Under the pieces are notes generated by a model, which was not told the DNA's origin, made no database searches, and worked only from the letters and a program-made list of their open reading frames with translations. Positions 23,865-62,599 of a stretch of 62,654 nt of DNA are shown piece by piece. The number at the start of each line of letters is the position of its first letter. The stretch's first letter is position 1. The stretch comes from Ignavibacterium sp. (lineage in GTDB: Bacteria; Zixibacteria; MSB-5A5; GN15; PGXB01). Location: NCBI GenBank assembly GCA_020724775.1, contig DYGG01000015.1, forward strand, positions 1-62,654, in the 5' to 3' direction. The position numbers were made by a program, and so were the translations under genes.

Positions 23865-23894
23865 TTGCTATAAGCGCACATTTCTTCGTAGATT
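23865..23894 (+). promoter_or_regulatory. Possible leaderless promoter of the LysE-family gene
   Basis: TTGCTA (23865-23870), an 18-nt spacer and TAGATT (23889-23894), with only 7 nt to ATG 23902. Transcription would start at or next to the start codon. This fits the absence of a ribosome binding site. The -35 box is weak. Confidence 0.4.
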
Positions 23895-23901
23895 ATGCAC
23901 C

Positions 23902-24546
23902 ATGGAACTCCTGACCCTCTTTTTTACCTCCTTCATTGTCGGGTTTTCGGGGGCGATGATGCCCGGCCCGCTTCTGGCTGTCGATATTGCCCAGACTCCC
24001 GCCAAGGGCGCCCGCACCGGACCGATTCTAACCGGCGGTCATGCCATTGCTGAGGTCGCCGTGGTGGTTCTGCTTTCGGTCGGTCTTGCCACACTGGTTG
24101 CCGAAAATAAGGCCATTACCAGCGGTATCGGTATTGTCGGCGGCGGGATGCTGATTATTATGGGAATTGGCATGCTCTATGACCTGTTCAAAGCCCGTCT
24201 GAAAGCATCCGAAGGGACCGCCGAAGCCCGTCATGCCGGAAGACTGGTCTTTGACGGCATAATCACTTCTCTATCCAATCCGTACTGGTTTGTCTGGTGG
24301 GCGACCACCGGTTCCGCTTTCCTGCTCAAATCGCTCAAGCATGGTCCGGTTGTCGGTCCGACCGTGTTTTATTTCGGACATATCCTCTCAGACCTGGTAT
24401 GGTACAGTTTTGTAAGCATTCTTATCTGGAAAGGGCGGAGGCTGATTATCGGAACGGGATATAAGATTCTAATCGGGGTTTGCGCTTTGTTCTTGCTTTA
24501 TCTGGGGGGAGTTTTTATTCATGACGGCATCACGGGAGCGATATGA
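23902..24546 (+). CDS. LysE/RhtB-family membrane exporter
   Basis: A 214-residue inner-membrane protein with about six hydrophobic helices. The N-terminal segment FIVGFSGAMMPGPLLAVDIAQ and the central SLSNPYWFVWWATTG are typical of LysE-type translocators, which export amino acids or similar small molecules using the proton gradient. The substrate cannot be told from sequence. I chose ATG 23902 because the fold starts there; a longer frame from 23824 adds 26 basic residues absent from the family. No operon partner: dnaE begins 183 nt downstream. Confidence 0.85.
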   Translation: MELLTLFFTSFIVGFSGAMMPGPLLAVDIAQTPAKGARTGPILTGGHAIAEVAVVVLLSVGLATLVAENKAITSGIGIVGGGMLIIMGIGMLYDLFKARLKASEGTAEARHAGRLVFDGIITSLSNPYWFVWWATTGSAFLLKSLKHGPVVGPTVFYFGHILSDLVWYSFVSILIWKGRRLIIGTGYKILIGVCALFLLYLGGVFIHDGITGAI

Positions 24547-29590: not shown

Positions 29591-30025
29591 TCAGTCGTCG
29601 TCCGTTTCTCTTTTGGAGAAGTAATATATCTCGGAGTGATAATGATATCCGGCCCTCTTGAAAGCGGCGATCGACGGCAGATTCTCTTCTTCAATCAATG
29701 CCGCAATGACTTTCAGCCCCTGTTCCCGAAGCGCTTTTTCACACTCCTCGATTAATAGTCCGGCCAGCCTCTGCCCTCGGTAGTCCGGGTCAATGGCCAG
29801 CCGGTTAATCCACCCTTTGCGTCCATCGGATGTCCCGATTATCGCCCCAATCATTTTATCGCCATCGAACATTCCCTGAAAACAGGTCTCCATTCGCTTG
29901 ACTTCGTTGGCGATGGCGTCACGGGAATCTCGTCCTCTGGGACGGTACGGCAGACCGGAGCGGTCCCACAGGGCTATCAGATCATCATAGTCGGTGGCAT
30001 CAAGCGGACGAATCAGATAATCCAT
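29591..30025 (-). CDS. GNAT-family N-acetyltransferase
   Basis: A 144-residue GNAT protein. The acetyl-CoA-binding motif A is seen as INRLAIDPDYRGQRLAGLLIEECEKAL (about 72-98, with the Q/R-x2-G-x-G/A core), followed by the motif B-like IAAFKRAGYHYHSEIYYF. The substrate is unknown. It overlaps the upstream DUF116 gene by 26 nt on the same strand, so the two are translationally coupled. Confidence 0.88.
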   Translation of the reverse strand: MDYLIRPLDATDYDDLIALWDRSGLPYRPRGRDSRDAIANEVKRMETCFQGMFDGDKMIGAIIGTSDGRKGWINRLAIDPDYRGQRLAGLLIEECEKALREQGLKVIAALIEEENLPSIAAFKRAGYHYHSEIYYFSKRETDDD

Positions 30026-30740
30026 ATTTTTCCACTAAAATCTTTTCAACTCTATCTAAAGCGGTCTCCGTGGCAAACGGGGCATCGCTCCAGTGGCGGC
30101 AACCGGTGTAATTAAGGAATACCCCCCGCGCCGGAATCCCTAATTCACCGGCGGTGCGCATACCGGACGCCAGCGTCAGAATGCAGGAGATTCCGATTAC
30201 CGACAGCGACTGGTGTTTTTTCTGAATCCGCCTCAGTTGCTCCTCCAGTTTTCGCTGAGAGAAATAGCCGGCGACCCCATACCGGTCGGCAATCTGCATG
30301 ATTTTGTTAATCTGGCAGTTGGGAACACAGCGGTCGCAGACCTTGCCGAAGCGAGTTTTCTTGCGCTTGCATTTCTCCTGCATCAGGGAGAGACATTGAG
30401 GCAAGATTATGAATGTATTTTTCGCGGCATTGAATGATTCCCGGCAGGATTGGTCATAAAACTGGAAAGCCAGCGCCTCCAGAAGATAAAGAGGCCGGGG
30501 GGTGCGGCGAAACTGATGGTCATCACGGTCCGTGTTGTCGAAACAGGCCATTTGATAAAAAGCGTCGATATTCTTGAATTCGTTCTCAAAGAGCGCCAGC
30601 CCTTTGTCCGTTACTTCCGATGAAAACTGCTCCAGTTTACGATAGAAATCATCCTGCAGCAGAAATGTCGGCGGCGCCTTGCGGATCATAATTAAATATA
30701 TGGAAATATCCGAATCTTGCCAACCGTCTAAGCGTGTCAT
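30000..30740 (-). CDS. DUF116 family protein
   Basis: A 246-residue protein with the DUF116 hallmarks: a cysteine-rich patch (KCKRKKTRFGKVCDRCVPNC), then QINKIMQIADRYGVAGYF, then GISCILTLASGMRTAGELGIPARGVFLNYTGC. The clustered cysteines suggest a metal or iron-sulfur site. Function is not established for the family. I chose the start at 30740, preceded by GGAGAG, because a longer frame would run into the coaX coding region and promoter. It is divergent from coaX with 57 nt between starts. Confidence 0.82.
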   Translation of the reverse strand: MTRLDGWQDSDISIYLIMIRKAPPTFLLQDDFYRKLEQFSSEVTDKGLALFENEFKNIDAFYQMACFDNTDRDDHQFRRTPRPLYLLEALAFQFYDQSCRESFNAAKNTFIILPQCLSLMQEKCKRKKTRFGKVCDRCVPNCQINKIMQIADRYGVAGYFSQRKLEEQLRRIQKKHQSLSVIGISCILTLASGMRTAGELGIPARGVFLNYTGCRHWSDAPFATETALDRVEKILVEKYGLSDSSA

Positions 30741-30762: not shown

Positions 30763-30790
30763 TTGACTTGCCTCAAATCCGCCGTATATT
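30763..30790 (+). promoter_or_regulatory. Leaderless promoter of coaX
   Basis: TTGACT (30763-30768), a 16-nt spacer and TATATT (30785-30790). Only 7 nt separate the -10 box from ATG 30798, so the expected transcription start is the start codon itself. No ribosome binding site is present. Confidence 0.6.
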
Positions 30791-30797
30791 TCCCTTG

Positions 30798-31565
30798 ATG
30801 TTGCTTGCTATCGACATCGGCAATACTAATACTGTCATCGGGCTCTTTGACGGCGAGCGTCTTATTGACCATTTTCGCGCCGCGTCGGAGCATTCCCTTA
30901 CTATTGATGAATGCGGTTTCTTTGTGTCCGGACTGCTGGAAAGACTTAAATTCTCTCCAGACAAGGTCACTCAGGTAGTGATCGCCTCGGTGGTTCCCCG
31001 CTTAACTCCCGTTTATGAGGGTATGGCGCGCAAGTATTTCAAGCGGGAGCCGCTGACAGTCTCATCACGATTGAATCTTCCGATTAAAATAGGATACCAG
31101 GACCCGACCGCTGTCGGAGCCGACCGTATCGCCAATGCCGTCGCCGGTTTTGTCCGTTTCGGTGGACCGCTCATCATTGTTGACTACGGCACCGCCACCA
31201 CCTTTGATGTTATCACAGCCGAAGGGGTATATCTGGGCGGAGTCATTGCTCCGGGACCGGAGACCTCCGGCGGTGAATTGGCACGTCGGGCGGCACGTCT
31301 TTTCGAAGTCAGAATCGAGAAACCGGCGCGGGTAATCGGGCGAACAACCGCTGAATCAATTAAATCGGGACTCTTTTACGGCACCGTGGGACAGGTGGAC
31401 CTCATTATTCAGTTGATAATAGAAGAGTTGATGACGCCGGCGCGGGTGATTTCGACCGGCGGGCTTGCCCCCGATTTTGCGGCGGAGTCAAAGTTTATCG
31501 AAGCGACCTATCCGACCCTGACGCTTGACGGTCTAAAGATAATCGCGGGCTATTCTGTTCAATAG
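30798..31565 (+). CDS. coaX: Type III pantothenate kinase
   Basis: A 255-residue CoaX that phosphorylates pantothenate in the first step of coenzyme A synthesis. ATP-binding DIGNTNTVIGLFDGE is at 6-20, VGADRIANAVAG near 110, DYGTATTFDVI near 128 with the catalytic aspartate, and GGVIAPG near 145. The family uses ATP and a monovalent cation and is insensitive to CoA feedback. The ATG at 30798 matches the fold start; an in-frame start at 30768 would sit inside the promoter. Confidence 0.96.
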   Translation: MLLAIDIGNTNTVIGLFDGERLIDHFRAASEHSLTIDECGFFVSGLLERLKFSPDKVTQVVIASVVPRLTPVYEGMARKYFKREPLTVSSRLNLPIKIGYQDPTAVGADRIANAVAGFVRFGGPLIIVDYGTATTFDVITAEGVYLGGVIAPGPETSGGELARRAARLFEVRIEKPARVIGRTTAESIKSGLFYGTVGQVDLIIQLIIEELMTPARVISTGGLAPDFAAESKFIEATYPTLTLDGLKIIAGYSVQ

Positions 31566-33682: not shown

Positions 33683-33709
33683 TTGTCGCAAAACGCATTT
33701 CCTTGATAG

Positions 33710-33737
33710 AAAACCCCTGTCACATGACAGGGGTTTT
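33710..33737 (+). terminator. groESL terminator
   Basis: A near-perfect palindrome, AAAACCCCTGTCA/TGACAGGGGTTTT (33710-33722 and 33725-33737), continuing into CTTA. It lies 28 nt after the groEL stop. Confidence 0.9.
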
Positions 33738-33757
33738 CTTATCTGCGGCTCCGGCTC

Positions 33758-33786
33758 TTGACTTGAACTGCAAATTTCTTTAGAAT
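33758..33786 (+). promoter_or_regulatory. Leaderless promoter of the FAD oxidase gene
   Basis: TTGACT (33758-33763), a 17-nt spacer and TAGAAT (33781-33786), then 6 nt to GTG 33793. The expected start of transcription is the start codon. No ribosome binding site is present. Confidence 0.6.
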
Positions 33787-33792
33787 GCCGCT

Positions 33793-34551
33793 GTGTCAAG
33801 ACTGGATGCCTTCATTGCCGAAGTTAAAAAGCGATTCCCGGATGACCGGCTCACCTATCAAAAGGGGGTTGCCACATTTCATCCGGAAAACGGCGCCGAA
33901 GCGGCGGCGCTTTTCCGGATGGCAAATCAAACCGGGCAGCAGCTATTTATCACCGGATTCGGCAACCAGATAGACCCGGTCGGAGAGAAATTCGCCGACC
34001 TGATGACCCTGCGCAGCGACCGTCTCAATACTTTGCTCCGGGTCGCCGCGGATGATTTCTATATCGAAGTCGGCGCCGGATATCCGCTTCGCGAACTGAA
34101 TCAGGAACTTTCCGAATACGGATTATTTCTGCCTCATAGTGACCTGCCGTATGTGGGCTCTATCGCCGGCGCGATCGCTGTCGGACTTTCCGCTCAGCGC
34201 GGAACGCAACTGCTTCCCTTGAGCCGTTATCTAATCATGGCAGAAATCGCTACCGCCACCGGTGACCTGATAAAACCGGGCTCGGCTTGTTTTAAATCTG
34301 TCTCGGGATTCGACATTGTCAAAATCTATTTTTCTTCCTGGGGAATGCTGGGGATGATTATGACGGTGACATTGCGGGTTCTGCCTCTTTCAGTCAAAGC
34401 CGAATATAGCGATCTGGTGCAAAATGCGGTCGACTATCGCAAATTCTGTCAGTTATATTTGAATCCCGGCGGCCATCTCTCGGCCCGCTTCTCTCTCAAA
34501 ATCAAATCCAGGTTTGACCCCAATAATATTCTCCCGCTAATTGCCGTGTAA
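33793..34551 (+). CDS. Short FAD-binding oxidase (GlcD/GlcE-like)
   Basis: A 252-residue protein containing the FAD_binding_4 (PCMH) fold: GQQLFITGFGNQ, RVAADDFYIEVGAGYPLRELNQEL, PYVGSIAGAIAVGLSA and FKSVSGFDIVKIYFSSWGMLGMI. The usual substrate-binding cap domain is almost absent, yet the protein ends with the family's terminal motif SRFDPNNILP. This looks like a compact GlcE-type subunit, not a truncation. GlcE-like proteins act with GlcD and an iron-sulfur subunit to oxidise 2-hydroxyacids, but neither partner is nearby. The start is GTG 33793, fixed by the promoter spacing. Confidence 0.85.
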   Translation: MSRLDAFIAEVKKRFPDDRLTYQKGVATFHPENGAEAAALFRMANQTGQQLFITGFGNQIDPVGEKFADLMTLRSDRLNTLLRVAADDFYIEVGAGYPLRELNQELSEYGLFLPHSDLPYVGSIAGAIAVGLSAQRGTQLLPLSRYLIMAEIATATGDLIKPGSACFKSVSGFDIVKIYFSSWGMLGMIMTVTLRVLPLSVKAEYSDLVQNAVDYRKFCQLYLNPGGHLSARFSLKIKSRFDPNNILPLIAV

Positions 34552-46519: not shown

Positions 46520-46544
46520 CGAGCACCCCCTTCCTCAACAGGAG

Positions 46545-46574
46545 AAGGCAGGCATCGAGCCTGCCTTTTCTTTT
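46545..46574 (+). terminator. Terminator of the ECF operon
   Basis: AAGGCAGGC (46545-46553) pairs with GCCTGCCTT (46559-46567) around ATCGA, then TTCTTTTTG. Confidence 0.93.
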
Positions 46575-46660
46575 TGAAGGTCGTAACGATATCCAACCAA
46601 TTACTGTTAAGTGTGTTATGCAGATACTGCCATTATGGCATATTTTCTGACAGAATCGAC

Positions 46661-46690
46661 TTGACTTCCCATCTTATTATTCGATATATA
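46661..46690 (+). promoter_or_regulatory. Leaderless promoter of the rnr operon
   Basis: TTGACT (46661-46666), an 18-nt spacer and TATATA (46685-46690), with only 5 nt to ATG 46696. Transcription is expected to begin at the start codon of RNase R, which has no ribosome binding site. Confidence 0.55.
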
Positions 46691-46695
46691 TAGGC

Positions 46696-48843
46696 ATGAT
46701 ACCAAATGAACAGTTTGTAATTGACTATCTCGCCTACAAGGCGGGAAGACCTTTGAAGGTTCGTGAACTTGCCAAAGCCCTCGACATTTCCGAAAGAGAT
46801 TACTCGGGCTTTCGAGCGATGGTGCGCCGGCTTACGGAATCGGGGCGGCTGGTGCTTCTCAAGAGAAACAGGCTCGGCGTGCCGGCGGCGCTTAATCTTG
46901 TAATCGGCAATATTTCTATTTCCAAAGGGGGATATGGCACGATTACGACTGACGTCGGCGAGCCGGTTGTAATTCTTCCCGACGATACTCTTACGGCTCT
47001 GGACGGTGATAAAGTAATGGTGCGCGTCGGAACCGGTCCCGAAGATGAACTATCCGGAAAGGTGATTAAAGTCATTGAGCGCTCGGCGCGCGATATAGTC
47101 GGTACCTTCCGCGCCAAGAAGAATTTCAATTATGTCGTTCCGGATAACCGGAAGATTCACCGCGACATTTATATCCCCAACCAGTTCTCCCGGAAAGCGC
47201 GCGACGGTGAAAAAGTGGTGGTGCGGGTGAGCGAGTGGGAAGACTATCTGACCAATCCGGAAGGAGAGGTAACGGAGCGTCTGGGGATGCCGCATGAGCC
47301 GGGTGTTGACCTTTTGACAGTGATTCGCAATTATCAACTTGCCGACAAATTTCGTCCTGAGGTAATGGCGGAAGCGGTAGTGGCAGAGAAACTTTTCAGC
47401 CAGGAAGAAATAGGGCGCCGTCGCGATTTTACCGGCGAGGTAATTTATACCATCGACCCGGAAGATGCCAAAGACCATGACGATGCCATTACGGTGCAGA
47501 AGACCGCCCGCGGATTCCGTCTGGGAGTCTTCATTGCCGACGTCTCCCATTTCGTGCCGGAAGGAAGCGAACTGGACAAAGAAGCCTTTCGTCGTGGCAA
47601 CTCGGTTTATCTGCCAGGCGCGGTAATCCCGATGCTTCCAGAAAAACTGTCCAATGACCTCTGCTCCCTGAAGCCGAACCGGAAACGGCTGGTCTATGTG
47701 ACCATAATTGAGTTTGACGATGCCGGAAAAGTACTCGGGTACGAAATCGTTGAGGGAGTGATTAACTCCCGCGCCAAACTGTCATACGAGGAGGTACAGG
47801 ATTATTTCGACAAGGGGCAGTCACCAAATGGACTGGGCAAGGTTGCCGAAAACCTCTCAATGGCACGGCGGCTGGCGGCTATTCTGACTAAGAAACGGAT
47901 GTCGGAGGGGTCACTCGATTTCGACTTGCCGGAAGCCAAGATAATTCTCAACTCACGCGGAGAGATTGTTGAAATCGGGAACCGCGTGAGAATGGAATCG
48001 CATCGTCTTGTTGAGGAATTCATGCTTGCCGCCAATCGCGTGGTGGCTCTGCATGTCTTCCGCCTGGGGCAGAAGTTTCTCTATCGGGTGCACGACAAAC
48101 CGGATTTGGAAAAACTGGAAGCGTTTTCCTATCTTGTTTCCACATTGGGGTACAACTTTCCCGTCAGTGACCATATGAAACCGATTCAGTTTGCCCACTT
48201 TCTCGATAAGATAAAGGGAAAACCGGAAGAGGAATTATTGAATGAACTGATGCTTCGTTCGATGAAGAAGGCGGTTTATCAGGCGCAGAATATCGGCCAT
48301 TTCGGACTGGCCTTTTCGCATTATACTCATTTTACGTCGCCTATTCGCCGTTACCCTGATTTGATAGTGCATCGTCTTCTCAAAAAGTTGAAATCGGGCC
48401 GTTATCCGGAAAAACTATATAAGAGGATTGATTCCATCCTGACCAATGTCGGCCGGCATTGCTCTGAAACGGAACGTAACGCCGAAGCCGCCGAGCGCGA
48501 GGCAATCAAAGTAAAACAGGTCGTTTATATGGCGGATAGAATAGGTCAGGAATATAGTGGAGTAATCTCCGGCATACTCAATTTTGGGTTCTTTGTACGA
48601 CTGGCTGATATCGGCGCCGAAGGCATGGTTCGTTTATCAACGCTGGATGACGATTATTACAAATTCGACCCGAAGCATTTTCGGCTGGTGGGAAGTGCCA
48701 CCGGAAAAATCTTTCGCTTAGGGGATACGGTTCGAGTCGGGGTGATGTCGGTGGATAAATCGCGAAATGAAATCAATCTCTATCTCATTCAACCGGAAGG
48801 GGACAAAAAGAAAAGCCGCAAGGGGAGAAGATATCGCCGATGA
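46696..48843 (+). CDS. rnr: Ribonuclease R
   Basis: A 715-residue RNase II-family 3'-5' exoribonuclease that degrades structured RNA. Order: N-terminal helix-turn-helix (1-70), cold-shock-type OB folds (about 75-230), the RNB catalytic domain with the metal-binding aspartates in Asp254-PEDAKDHDDA (Asp254, Asp260, Asp262, Asp263), and an S1 domain (about 615-700, YSGVISGILNFGFFVRLADIGAEGMV), then a short basic tail. The length is normal for RNase R and too long for RNase II. It leads a six-gene operon; the next start overlaps its stop by 4 nt. Confidence 0.96.
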   Translation: MIPNEQFVIDYLAYKAGRPLKVRELAKALDISERDYSGFRAMVRRLTESGRLVLLKRNRLGVPAALNLVIGNISISKGGYGTITTDVGEPVVILPDDTLTALDGDKVMVRVGTGPEDELSGKVIKVIERSARDIVGTFRAKKNFNYVVPDNRKIHRDIYIPNQFSRKARDGEKVVVRVSEWEDYLTNPEGEVTERLGMPHEPGVDLLTVIRNYQLADKFRPEVMAEAVVAEKLFSQEEIGRRRDFTGEVIYTIDPEDAKDHDDAITVQKTARGFRLGVFIADVSHFVPEGSELDKEAFRRGNSVYLPGAVIPMLPEKLSNDLCSLKPNRKRLVYVTIIEFDDAGKVLGYEIVEGVINSRAKLSYEEVQDYFDKGQSPNGLGKVAENLSMARRLAAILTKKRMSEGSLDFDLPEAKIILNSRGEIVEIGNRVRMESHRLVEEFMLAANRVVALHVFRLGQKFLYRVHDKPDLEKLEAFSYLVSTLGYNFPVSDHMKPIQFAHFLDKIKGKPEEELLNELMLRSMKKAVYQAQNIGHFGLAFSHYTHFTSPIRRYPDLIVHRLLKKLKSGRYPEKLYKRIDSILTNVGRHCSETERNAEAAEREAIKVKQVVYMADRIGQEYSGVISGILNFGFFVRLADIGAEGMVRLSTLDDDYYKFDPKHFRLVGSATGKIFRLGDTVRVGVMSVDKSRNEINLYLIQPEGDKKKSRKGRRYRR

Positions 48844-56218: not shown

Positions 56219-57286
56219 ATGAAAAAGAATCAGTTGGTATCGATAATCGGGGCGGTGATATTGGCGACCTTCAGCACGGCGCCTCTTTTTGCCGCCGACT
56301 TTGAAGTCACGAAGGTGATCGAAATTGGCCCGGCAAATCAGGGATTCATGAGTTGGCCTCTTCGCTGGTCGCCCGACGGGAAGTGGCTGGCATTTTTCCG
56401 TGGAGACCGGCTGATGTTGGCGGACACACTAGGGGGGACAAAGGAGGTGAAGAGATTAGACCTCGGACCGAGACGATTTGAATGGGTTTCGAACGAAGAA
56501 ATAGCGGGCTATTTTGACCAGGGGACAATACCTGATTCATCTATTCAAAGGATATTGATCATAGACATTACAGACGGGGCCGAAACGGTTCTGGAGGAAC
56601 AAATACATTATAAGGGTCGCGTGAATCGAAGGTCGATGCAAGGGCCGTGGCGGACGGTTGAAGGAGATGTTTATTATATTATGGACGAGCGTATCAGCCC
56701 CATTTCGCGCAAGACAACTGAGGTCAGGAAGAAGATAGTTACGCGGAAGGGGGCCCGATCGGGAAACTCCTCGGGAAATAGTGGTCATATCCTTCACTGG
56801 GGAACGGATGGGATTTATAAAGTGGCACTTTCGGGAGCGGATTCGGTCCGCATTTCGCCTCACCCGCAAGGGGTGGGCCCCGGAGGGGTCACATTATCGC
56901 CTGATAGTTCTATCATAAATGTAAGCGGCAGTTTACTAAGGCTGAAGGATTCAATAACAATTAATCTGAATAAGGTGGTATCGGACATTCCTGATATAGC
57001 GAAGTATTGCGGGTGCGGGGACGTTTCGTTTAATCTTATATTTCGCGAGGCGCTGTTCGTGCAATCCTGTGATTCTGATGGCCATGAAACACTGGTAGAG
57101 AGGGCCGGAGTTTTTGACCTTGATGACCACTCCTACCGGTTCCTTGAAACCGGCGCCAATGCCAGATATATTTCGGCGCCGGTGTATGCGCCGGATGGTT
57201 CGAAAATTGCATTCATATCTGACGGCATTTGTTATATGATATTTAGAAAGCAGATTGGGGGTAAGAAATGGGCGCCCGAATTATAA
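56219..57286 (+). CDS. Secreted beta-propeller (PD40/TolB-like) protein, copy 1
   Basis: A 355-residue secreted protein: signal peptide (1-25, LATFSTAPLFAA), then propeller-like repeats. The clearest units are the PD40-type LRWSPDGKWLAFFRGDRLM near 47-66 and VYAPDGSKIAFISDG near 323-337, with other blades degenerate. PD40 repeats bind proteins or peptidoglycan partners in TolB-like systems. It overlaps the amidase gene by 19 nt, so the two are translated together. A paralogue (59721-60749) has nearly the same signal peptide but a much diverged body. Function unknown. Confidence 0.8.
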   Translation: MKKNQLVSIIGAVILATFSTAPLFAADFEVTKVIEIGPANQGFMSWPLRWSPDGKWLAFFRGDRLMLADTLGGTKEVKRLDLGPRRFEWVSNEEIAGYFDQGTIPDSSIQRILIIDITDGAETVLEEQIHYKGRVNRRSMQGPWRTVEGDVYYIMDERISPISRKTTEVRKKIVTRKGARSGNSSGNSGHILHWGTDGIYKVALSGADSVRISPHPQGVGPGGVTLSPDSSIINVSGSLLRLKDSITINLNKVVSDIPDIAKYCGCGDVSFNLIFREALFVQSCDSDGHETLVERAGVFDLDDHSYRFLETGANARYISAPVYAPDGSKIAFISDGICYMIFRKQIGGKKWAPEL

Positions 57287-59463
57287 TCAACATAATGATG
57301 CTATTTGCTTTGGCAGTTGGATGCTACGCACAACAATATGATGTGTGCTTTGACCCGGGGCACGGAGGGGACGAGCCGGGAACTATAGGATTAACAACCA
57401 GTGGTGACACCCTCCTGGAGAAGGACGTGAATCTTCAAGTGGCCCGAGCCCTGGCTCAAAAATGGATGCAGGAATATGTATTGATGTCCTATTTTGTTAC
57501 GAGGGATACCAACTTTATTACCCCCCGAGATAGGGCTAAAATGGCGAATGACAGCGGAGCCTATTGTCTGATATCCATACACCATAATTCATTTGACCCT
57601 TGTCCGTCACAGAAAATTCTGTCATTGTATTCAAACTACCCCACGGTTGTTGGTGACCCATGGCCGCCGAGAGTGCGAGATACATCGAGCACACTTGCCA
57701 AGAAAGTATCTTTTATGGTACGGGATATGTTCGAATATCCGCTGTCGGTTGAAAGCCCCAAAAATACTAATACAGATTTTTCCGTGCTATGCCGCTCTAA
57801 GATGGCCTCAACGATATCTGAAGCGTCATTCATCTGCATTCCTCAGGAAGCTGACTTATTTACGGAATATAGTTATTCCCATCCTTTATGGAGCGACCAC
57901 GCCGAGGATGAAGCTCTCGCCATTGCGCAAGCAGCTTGGAGCTATAAATGGAATAACGGCATAGGAAGCATAGATTACGCATATGTTCTATCTTCATGGA
58001 CAACTGCTCAATGTACCGTAAGCGTCGATTGGGAGAGTCACGAAGTTCCATTCGAATGGTGCTGGCCAAGCAACCAGTATTACACAATCGGCGCCGATTG
58101 GGATTTCTACTTTGATGGCTATCACTATACTTTCTACCGCTGGGCTAGGGTGGATTATAAATATCGTGATATTCTGGAGTTGTACTCTCCCGGCACTAAT
58201 CCGCTTTACGCTCAGCCACCGGTGACGGATTTATGGGGGTATGTTAGTTTGATCGCAATATATAGCGGTGGTGATTTTGGGACTAGACTGGTGATGCCTT
58301 TTCCCTTCACCACGGAAATCGATAATAACGATACGACGACAGTGATGTGGGATGCCTGTCCGGGCGTGTTGAACAGTTGCTCGGTTTATGTTGACCTATC
58401 GACTGACAACAAGCGGACCTGGACACGGATAGCGGGCCCGCTGCCTTACGATAACGGGATGCAGGGGCAGATTTATAAAGGATCGGATGGGACCGACTAT
58501 CCCAACGTCGGTAAATTTCTCTGGCATACTCCCAATATAGTGTCGGACAGTTGCTATCTGAGGATTTCGGGAAGCGACATTGCCGAGAATCAAGCAACCT
58601 TTGTCTCCCATCGCTTTTCCCTGGCGGGGTGCTGGCGGCCGATACCGCATTTCGAGGCAAATGACTCTTCCGGAATATTTCCGATGACTGTTCATTTTTT
58701 GGAGTGGTCCGAGCATGGCCCGACAGCATGGTTTTGGGATTTTGGGGACGGAGAGACTTCCACCCAGCAGAGTCCATATCATGTCTATGACACGATAGGG
58801 AATTACACTGTGAGCCTGATTGCCTCCAACGCTTGCGGACCGGAAACGCTTATTGTCCCTGACATGATTCATGTCGTTTGTCAGATGCCGTCGAACATTG
58901 ACGCATCGGATTCTTCTGTTCTGGTCGGACAGCAGGTTACTTTCTTTCGATTCCCCAATGATTCTTTGGATGCGACTTTTGACTGGGATTTCGGAGACGG
59001 TGAGACAGCCACCACCTCATCAGATCTAATTGCGCACCAGTACACATGCCCCGGGATATTTACGGTGAAACTAAGGCTAACTAACCGTTGCGGGGTCACG
59101 GAATTAGTGAAAAACAGATTCGTGACAGTGACCGACCCGACCGGGACATTGGACTCTGATGGTGACGGTTTTGGAGACGAGTGTGACAATTGTCCGGAGG
59201 TTGCCAACAATGACCAGACCGATAGTGACGGCAACGGAGTAGGGGATGCCTGTGATTTTGTCTGCGGCAACGCTAACGGCAGCGGCAATGGACTGGTGAA
59301 TATTCTGGATGTGCTGTATATGGTGGCATACTTATATAAGGGAGGGCAGACGCCATTTCCGCTGGAATCAGCGGACTGTAATGGGAATGGCACCGTGAAT
59401 ATCATTGATGTCACCTATCTTCTGGCAAACTTGTACAAGGGGGGCCCGCCATTGGTATGTTAA
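57268..59463 (+). CDS. Secreted N-acetylmuramoyl-L-alanine amidase with PKD, thrombospondin-3 and dockerin-like domains, copy 1
   Basis: A 731-residue secreted wall hydrolase. Signal peptide (1-21), Amidase_3 domain (about 24-215) with zinc ligands His32 (DPGHGGDEPG), Glu51 and His105/106 (SIHHNS) and catalytic Glu185 (STISEASFI), a middle beta region (220-460), two PKD domains (about 465-545 and 550-630, both with WDFGDGET), a calcium-binding thrombospondin-3 segment (DSDGDGFGDECDNCP), and a dockerin-like repeat pair at the C-terminus ending LYKGG. It should cut the amide bond between muramic acid and the stem peptide. Residues about 334-450 are encoded by DNA exactly repeated in the second copy. 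Confidence 0.92.
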   Translation: MGARIIINIMMLFALAVGCYAQQYDVCFDPGHGGDEPGTIGLTTSGDTLLEKDVNLQVARALAQKWMQEYVLMSYFVTRDTNFITPRDRAKMANDSGAYCLISIHHNSFDPCPSQKILSLYSNYPTVVGDPWPPRVRDTSSTLAKKVSFMVRDMFEYPLSVESPKNTNTDFSVLCRSKMASTISEASFICIPQEADLFTEYSYSHPLWSDHAEDEALAIAQAAWSYKWNNGIGSIDYAYVLSSWTTAQCTVSVDWESHEVPFEWCWPSNQYYTIGADWDFYFDGYHYTFYRWARVDYKYRDILELYSPGTNPLYAQPPVTDLWGYVSLIAIYSGGDFGTRLVMPFPFTTEIDNNDTTTVMWDACPGVLNSCSVYVDLSTDNKRTWTRIAGPLPYDNGMQGQIYKGSDGTDYPNVGKFLWHTPNIVSDSCYLRISGSDIAENQATFVSHRFSLAGCWRPIPHFEANDSSGIFPMTVHFLEWSEHGPTAWFWDFGDGETSTQQSPYHVYDTIGNYTVSLIASNACGPETLIVPDMIHVVCQMPSNIDASDSSVLVGQQVTFFRFPNDSLDATFDWDFGDGETATTSSDLIAHQYTCPGIFTVKLRLTNRCGVTELVKNRFVTVTDPTGTLDSDGDGFGDECDNCPEVANNDQTDSDGNGVGDACDFVCGNANGSGNGLVNILDVLYMVAYLYKGGQTPFPLESADCNGNGTVNIIDVTYLLANLYKGGPPLVC
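58266..58616 (+). repeat. 351-bp exact direct repeat, copy 1
   Basis: Every base of 58266-58616 matches 61735-62085 (offset 3469). Sequence just outside is clearly diverged on the left and only partly similar on the right. It encodes part of the middle region of the amidase. Confidence 0.97.
59131..59185 (+). repeat. Second exact repeat tract, copy 1
   Basis: Identical to 62600-62654 over all 55 bases up to the window edge, at the same 3469-bp offset as the 351-bp repeat. It encodes the start of the thrombospondin-3 segment. Confidence 0.9.
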
Positions 59464-59612: not shown

Positions 59613-59720
59613 CCATAAATTGGTGAGAGAGGTATGAAAATACCTTTGTGGTAGATCAAACGGGGACCGATGGATATCATTCTGCTGGAATTAGCGGGAC
59701 CTGATGACCGGGAGGAACGG

Positions 59721-60749
59721 ATGAAGAAATCAAATTTGTTTCAAGCGATAATCGGGGCGTTGATATTAGCGACCTTCAGTGCGGCGCCTCTTTTTGCCGC
59801 CGACTTTGAAGTCACCAAAGTGGTTGAAATCGGCCCGGCGGACTTGGTGCCTTTCCTGGGACCATTGAAATGGTCGCCGGATGGTACTATGATATCATAT
59901 TTTAGTAAGGGCTATTTGATGATTTCAGACACTCTGGGAAATACACATCAGGTGAGAAAAGTAGAATCTATGCCAAGGGTGTATGAATGGGTATCGGACA
60001 GTCTGATATGCATTGACTCCCAGACCGATTTTCGGCGGGCGGGAGAGATTTCTGACAAAGTGATGATAAATGTGTATGATGGTACTGAAAGGACGGCTCA
60101 GGATTTCTTTCAAGAACTTGTGTCGGATGAGGCATCGGACATTGTGGATTTTGACTCGCCCAGACGAACTGTAGAGGGCAACCTATGTTTCCGGACTTAC
60201 ACCCGGTCGGGGCGGGCAAAATACTTGACTTACAAACCTTCAAGAAGAAAGGCGGTCGTATCGACTCAAGCAAGCGATCATTACCCGAGGTGGGGTACAG
60301 ATGCCCTCTATCTTGTGCGAGTAGATGGGTCGGATTCTGTAAGATTCGCGCGAAAACCTTATGAACATATGCCTCGCTCTCCAGTTGTCAGCAAAGACCT
60401 GCGATATGTCTTGATGGGTGGAACATTGCAGCGTCTTTCCGATTCGATTTATATAGTTTTGGACACTATGATAAAAGAATTACCCGCCAGAACTGAAGTA
60501 TGTGGTTTTGTTCTTGGCTCATTCAATGAATCTGTATCAGAGATTTTGCTTCAATTGAGCTGCGATGACGGGCATATGTATGTAGTGAATAGTATAGGGG
60601 TGTTCAATCTACTGTCGAACAAGCTCACTATAATTGACCCAATCATAAGTAAGAGCAACTGCACGAGCCCTCGCTACTCACCTGATGGAAGAAAAATAGC
60701 CTTTTTATCGGAAGGGAAACTTTTCATTCTGGAGAGGAGGGGATTATGA
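59721..60749 (+). CDS. Secreted beta-propeller protein, copy 2
   Basis: A 342-residue paralogue of the protein at 56219-57286. The signal peptide (LATFSAAPLFAADFEVTKV) is almost identical, while the rest shares only scattered positions such as LKWSPDG, RRTVEGN and PRYSPDGRKIAFLSEGKLF. I chose ATG 59721, which has GGGAGGA upstream and aligns with copy 1; an ATG at 59670 adds 17 acidic residues before the signal peptide. It overlaps the second amidase gene by 4 nt. Confidence 0.8.
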   Translation: MKKSNLFQAIIGALILATFSAAPLFAADFEVTKVVEIGPADLVPFLGPLKWSPDGTMISYFSKGYLMISDTLGNTHQVRKVESMPRVYEWVSDSLICIDSQTDFRRAGEISDKVMINVYDGTERTAQDFFQELVSDEASDIVDFDSPRRTVEGNLCFRTYTRSGRAKYLTYKPSRRKAVVSTQASDHYPRWGTDALYLVRVDGSDSVRFARKPYEHMPRSPVVSKDLRYVLMGGTLQRLSDSIYIVLDTMIKELPARTEVCGFVLGSFNESVSEILLQLSCDDGHMYVVNSIGVFNLLSNKLTIIDPIISKSNCTSPRYSPDGRKIAFLSEGKLFILERRGL

Positions 60750-61734: not shown

Positions 61735-62085
61735 CGGTGGTGATTTTGGGACTAGACTGGTGATGCCTTTTCCCTTCACCACGGAAATCGATAATAACGA
61801 TACGACGACAGTGATGTGGGATGCCTGTCCGGGCGTGTTGAACAGTTGCTCGGTTTATGTTGACCTATCGACTGACAACAAGCGGACCTGGACACGGATA
61901 GCGGGCCCGCTGCCTTACGATAACGGGATGCAGGGGCAGATTTATAAAGGATCGGATGGGACCGACTATCCCAACGTCGGTAAATTTCTCTGGCATACTC
62001 CCAATATAGTGTCGGACAGTTGCTATCTGAGGATTTCGGGAAGCGACATTGCCGAGAATCAAGCAACCTTTGTCTCCCATCGCTT
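61735..62085 (+). repeat. 351-bp exact direct repeat, copy 2
   Basis: Exact copy of 58266-58616. It lies in the interrupted amidase downstream of the TAG. Confidence 0.97.
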
Positions 62086-62599
62086 CTCTCTGGCGGGGTG
62101 CTGGCGGCCGACGCCTGGAATTTACACTACTGATACAATCGGTTATTATCCGATGATAGTGGAATTGTTCGACAACTCCGGACATGATCCGACATCTTGG
62201 TTGTGGGATTTTGGCGACGGGGAGACCTCGACTCTCAAAGACCCCATTCATGTATATGATACGGCGGGAGATTTTACGGTGCGTCTGGTTGCTTCCAATG
62301 CCTGCGGTCCGGAGACCCTGATAGTTCCGAATCTGATACATGTTTACTGCCAGATGCCATCGAGAATAGAAGCGTCTGATACCACCGTAGTAGTTGGCGA
62401 GGAATTGACACTTTATCGATATCGCTATGACTCACTTACTGTAAATTATCATTGGGATTTTGGGGATGGCACAACAGATAGCAGTACTGACAATGTAATA
62501 GACCATGTCTATTCTTGTCCGGGGATATTTACGGTGAAAGTGGATGTTACCAATCGCTGTGGTGTGACTCATCTGGTTAACAACAGGTTTATTACGGTA

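Follow-up and report, generated by a model that had tools for sequence, protein, structure and literature searches.

The window analysed here, the whole 62,654-nt stretch of contig DYGG01000015.1, belongs to a metagenome-assembled genome (MAG) of 3.07 Mb in 87 contigs. Candidatus Zixiibacteriota MAGs, e.g. CP070766.1, are its closest named relatives. On its forward strand, coaX, encoding a type III pantothenate kinase (30,798 to 31,565; Pfam PF03309, E = 1.7e-65), lies divergent from a minus-strand DUF116 gene (30,000 to 30,740; Pfam PF01976, E = 4e-20) that has GGAG 11 nt upstream of its ATG, and the two start codons are 57 nt apart. Two further forward-strand genes are, like coaX, predicted to be leaderless: a FAD-binding oxidase-like gene (FAD gene) with a GTG start (33,793 to 34,551; Pfam PF01565, E = 6.6e-16) and rnr, encoding RNase R (46,696 to 48,843; TIGR02063, E = 5e-232). 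Between groEL and the FAD gene promoter lies a very strong, near-perfect hairpin on the forward strand, likely a terminator (33,705 to 33,743; -26.2 kcal/mol, z = -7.2), which ends about 50 nt upstream of the FAD gene start, and a terminator also precedes rnr (46,540 to 46,575, forward strand; -23.5 kcal/mol, z = -5.7). Given the divergent neighbour of coaX and the terminators upstream of the other two, each gene heads its own transcription unit; there is scant space for an additional promoter at coaX and the FAD gene, rnr being the exception.

Upstream of coaX, the sequence reads TTGACT-N16-TATATT-N7-ATG, with the -35 box at 30,763 to 30,768, the -10 box at 30,785 to 30,790 and the ATG at 30,798. 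The corresponding region of the FAD gene is TTGACT-N17-TAGAAT-N6-GTG (boxes at 33,758 to 33,763 and 33,781 to 33,786, GTG at 33,793) and that of rnr is TTGACT-N18-TATATA-N5-ATG (46,661 to 46,666 and 46,685 to 46,690, ATG at 46,696), all on the forward strand. The original prediction, TTGACT-N16-18-TAnnnT ending 5-7 nt before a start codon, therefore describes coaX and the FAD gene exactly; for rnr the spacing stands, while the -10 box departs from TAnnnT at its sixth base, an A, most relatives having TAnnnT here. Compared with the sigma-70 hexamers TTGACA and TATAAT at a spacer of 16-18 nt, coaX and the FAD gene match at 10 of 12 bases, and the rnr promoter passes the genome's own matrix (score 11.3) and fails a strict consensus scan. 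That these genes have no ribosome binding site was borne out, the longest match to the anti-Shine-Dalgarno (anti-SD) sequence being 0 nt for coaX, 0 nt for the FAD gene and 3 nt for rnr. In the standard sigma-70 geometry, +1 comes after six intervening bases downstream of the -10 box. With a gap of 6 nt, +1 thus coincides with the start codon's first base, and gaps of 5-8 nt place it within 2 nt of that base. For coaX, the predicted transcription start is at 30,797-30,798, so that its mRNA is predicted to begin at the ATG.

SD-led initiation is the majority mode in this genome. An anti-SD match of at least 4 nt precedes 34 of the 49 genes called within the window, and in a genome sample of 1.5 Mb (1222 genes called by coding potential, with starts picked without upstream motifs) SD matches peak 5-7 nt upstream of starts, which shows that SD sequences are used. 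SD use was judged from this peak, as a contig breaks off within the 16S gene and leaves the anti-SD unreadable.

To count promoter-to-start distances, the check originally proposed, we used a two-box promoter matrix trained on upstream regions regardless of position and took scores of at least 9 as matches. Among 578 operon-first genes, 14 had a match at 6 nt and 10 at 7 nt from the start codon. This peak of 24 compares with 5.5 expected locally (2.7 per position; Poisson P = 4e-9) and persists against the 4.2 per position found over gaps of 10-60 nt (P = 9e-6). A second, broad rise about 30-45 nt upstream of starts represents the normal leadered class, and operon-internal genes of the same 1.5 Mb sample showed no peak of matrix matches near starts. 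TTGAC alone also peaked sharply, exactly 30 nt before starts (12 vs about 1-2). With gaps of 5-8 nt, 27 operon-first genes carry a promoter match; displaced 4-nt windows nearby hold 9-15 genes, so roughly half the candidates exceed this background, and perhaps 10-15 of the 27 are chance or short-leader cases. The leaderless class would amount to a few percent of operon-first genes.

Several properties of these 27 candidates were compared with those of other genes. An SD match of at least 4 nt was present in 11% of them, vs 58% of other first genes, 63% of inner genes and 32% of shuffled sequences, a deficit that is partly forced because the -10 box fills the SD site and is thus supportive but not independent. 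Their start codons comprise 25 ATG, 2 GTG and no TTG, consistent with initiation at AUG or GUG. A pyrimidine occupies position -1 in 21/27 candidates vs 287/551 others (Fisher p = 0.01), an excess expected when the A of ATG is +1; pyrimidines are frequent at -1 of the control gene dnaE too (23/30). Weaker mRNA structure at the candidate starts was not seen (minimum free energy -4.3 vs -5.0, p = 0.41).

Counting exact occurrences of TTGACT-N15-18-TANNNT-N4-8-ATG proved too blunt a test, with 17 in the genome vs 9 for the reversed pattern, and many exact matches must therefore be chance. This count favours the view that the boxes in the window are chance promoter likenesses near start codons, yet that view is scarcely credible for coaX, rnr and the FAD gene, since their conservation across about 30 genomes each refutes it. 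Chance may still account for the LysE-type gene and pcm, which had been put forward as weaker cases and do have weaker promoters. The former (Pfam PF01810) is preceded on the forward strand by TTGCTA-N18-TAGATT (23,865 to 23,894; matrix score 10.0), 7 nt before its ATG at 23,902, and pcm (PF01135) on the minus strand by TTGACA-N16-GAAATT (1,322 to 1,349; score 12.8), 6 nt before its ATG at 1,315 and with G in place of the first T of the -10 box. Leaderless mRNAs are weakly supported for these two genes.

The conservation was determined among orthologs from the 40 nearest genomes, with up to 30 loci per gene and a matrix match at 5-8 nt as criterion. The architecture is kept in 28/30 loci for coaX, 23/30 for rnr and 24/29 for the FAD gene, the -35 boxes included, as well as in 22/30 for ruvX and 27/30 for smpB. 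Since ruvX and smpB were chosen as candidates in this genome, their conservation elsewhere is new evidence. By comparison, none of 30 dnaE upstream regions had a match, and shuffled sequences gave 0.1-1%. The start of the coaX protein, MLLAIDIGNTNT, is likewise kept among relatives. The few orthologs without the promoter or with an SD instead include coaX at L109 and L126 and rnr at L152 and L157, and in the latter two, within the order, an SD stands in place of the promoter.

Across alignment columns, information is found only in the -35 and -10 boxes, reaching 1.8 bits in coaX (1.0-1.8 bits at columns -12 to -7, with 0.1 in its spacer), compared with about 0.1-0.2 bits in spacers generally and a flat profile at dnaE. 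This bears on whether the boxes, instead of forming a sigma-70 promoter, might be an operator to which a regulator binds. A gene-specific sub-consensus hexamer, TTGCAA, conserved in smpB would suit an operator; however, boxes that fit the genome's promoter matrix, are spaced by N16-18 across an unconserved spacer and precede unrelated genes make this highly improbable. We consider it similarly very unlikely that an upstream promoter supplies a normal leader, with the start-adjacent pair being incidental or an internal promoter. An extra matrix match at least 15 nt upstream does exist in 6 rnr, 2 coaX and 2 FAD gene relatives, but the order-wide fixed spacing, the lack of an SD, the divergent neighbour and the upstream terminators all argue against such a leader.

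The spacing itself is informative as to where transcription would begin. The modal gap between -10 box and start is 6 nt for coaX, rnr, the FAD gene and ruvX, so that +1 falls on the A of ATG. Gaps of 7-8 nt among smpB orthologs, and of 8-10 nt for the FAD gene in L161, L162, L164 and L168 (several of its missing cases), nevertheless suggest that some of these promoters, although real, could fire a few nucleotides upstream of the start codon and give a 5' UTR of 1-5 nt, near-leaderless rather than strictly leaderless. We regard this as possible, at well below even odds for the class; a leader of 1-5 nt would in any case be too short for an SD.

Our preferred explanation, to which we assign a probability of about 0.87, is that coaX, the FAD gene and rnr have leaderless mRNAs, which arise from adjacent housekeeping promoters and are translated without an SD. 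Leaderless mRNA for these genes is strongly supported, at the level of sequence, by the genome-wide peak, the SD deficit and the order-wide presence of the boxes at a fixed distance. In this model, a sigma-70-type promoter abuts the start codon and RNA polymerase would initiate at, or about 2 nt from, its first base. Translation of leaderless mRNA by binding to a 5'-AUG is known in other bacteria, and ribosomes here presumably bind the 5'-terminal AUG or GUG in the same manner. Whereas the boxes, their spacing, the peak, the conservation and the SD deficit are read directly from DNA, we infer the transcription start position and the ribosomal route from them. The class would be a minority in an otherwise SD-led genome and is conserved for individual genes across the order. 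The coexistence of two translation-start modes, as originally suggested, is thus supported by the SDs of the window genes, the 6-7 nt promoter peak, the SD deficit and the order-wide box conservation.

Outside the order, the picture differs. The coaX start MLxxIDIGNTN is shared by other orders of the class, with an SD preceding it in several genomes. In several sister orders AGGAG precedes the same ATG, which confirms the start codon, and coaX of L405 and L416 is SD-led, reading AAGGAGGCATT-ATG. Leaderless-like coaX was found at few other-order loci (L384, L387 and L403). In L418 and L419 (family f3), TATAAT or TATATT stands as a -10 box 6-8 nt ahead of the coaX ATG, with no recognisable -35. 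Among the coaX upstream regions of other phyla scanned, the architecture was essentially absent, with one marginal match in Nitrospira (L366; score 9.4, gap 9 nt). We also counted TTGAC-N17-19-TATATT-N5-8-ATG against the same pattern with N15-18 before ATG over 118 genomes of the phylum. The leaderless spacing is in excess in the order of the window (423 vs 298, p = 7.5e-6), and the other orders of the phylum showed no such excess (202 vs 191, p = 0.33).

This mechanism is already known in other phyla. Of the 953 bacterial genomes surveyed by Zheng et al. (2011; PMC3160421), 207 have TANNNT boxes lying about 12 bp from translation starts, according to the part of the survey drawn on here. Their TA-led genes, like those described here, have the box about 12 bp upstream and no 5' UTR and stand beside SD-led genes; the first T of the -10 box lies at -13 in coaX, -12 in the FAD gene and -11 in rnr. 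They also resemble the present class in being inherited by lineage and exchanged with SD over time. Zixibacteria are not named in that part of the survey, and here the class is small and its genes were followed one at a time across an order. Zhong et al. (2025; PMC12340547) proved the same design by experiment in Deinococcus-Thermus: the -10 box adjoins the open reading frame and the mRNA is leaderless, the promoter being experimentally shown there. It covers about 30% of open reading frames in that group, in contrast to a few percent here, where the -35 element TTGAC(A/T) is also conserved. Mycobacterium tuberculosis (PMC3898074) likewise has both leaderless mRNAs and SD-led ones, although leaderless expression is extensive there and measured by transcription start mapping, whereas here it is minor and deduced from sequence. 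A literature search for 'leaderless' with 'Zixibacteria', in this spelling of the name only, found no paper, and we found no earlier report for this phylum.

Our data therefore add a candidate phylum to the bacteria with leaderless expression, and the conservation from gene to gene is unusually clear. Single genes that are leaderless through an order and SD-led in sister orders suggest that the switch from SD to leaderless can be dated gene by gene, and gene-start callers based on SD may misplace starts in such MAGs. It is a doubtful speculation that a fixed housekeeping set, to which smpB and rnr belong as partners in trans-translation and RNA decay, is selectively kept leaderless such that its synthesis continues, or is separately regulated, when SD-dependent initiation is impaired.

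Some additional features were observed. The smpB orthologs of the order (L218-L247; positions -43 to -31) keep a sub-consensus -35, TTGCAA or TTGCCA, together with an upstream block from -43 to -36, beyond plain promoter needs. The FAD gene product consists of a FAD_binding_4 domain only (252 aa) and lacks the C-terminal portion present in GlcD-type oxidases; a nitrilase-like gene lies next to it on the 3' side, an arrangement that recurs in another genome (G013, L160). Elsewhere in the window, secreted-protein genes with near-identical signal peptides are duplicated (56,219-57,286 and 59,670-60,749; 58,396-58,872 and 61,865-62,341), and a repeated stretch lies near the 3' end of the 57,268 gene, near a dockerin-like C-terminus, in minus-strand open reading frames with an identical C-terminal part.
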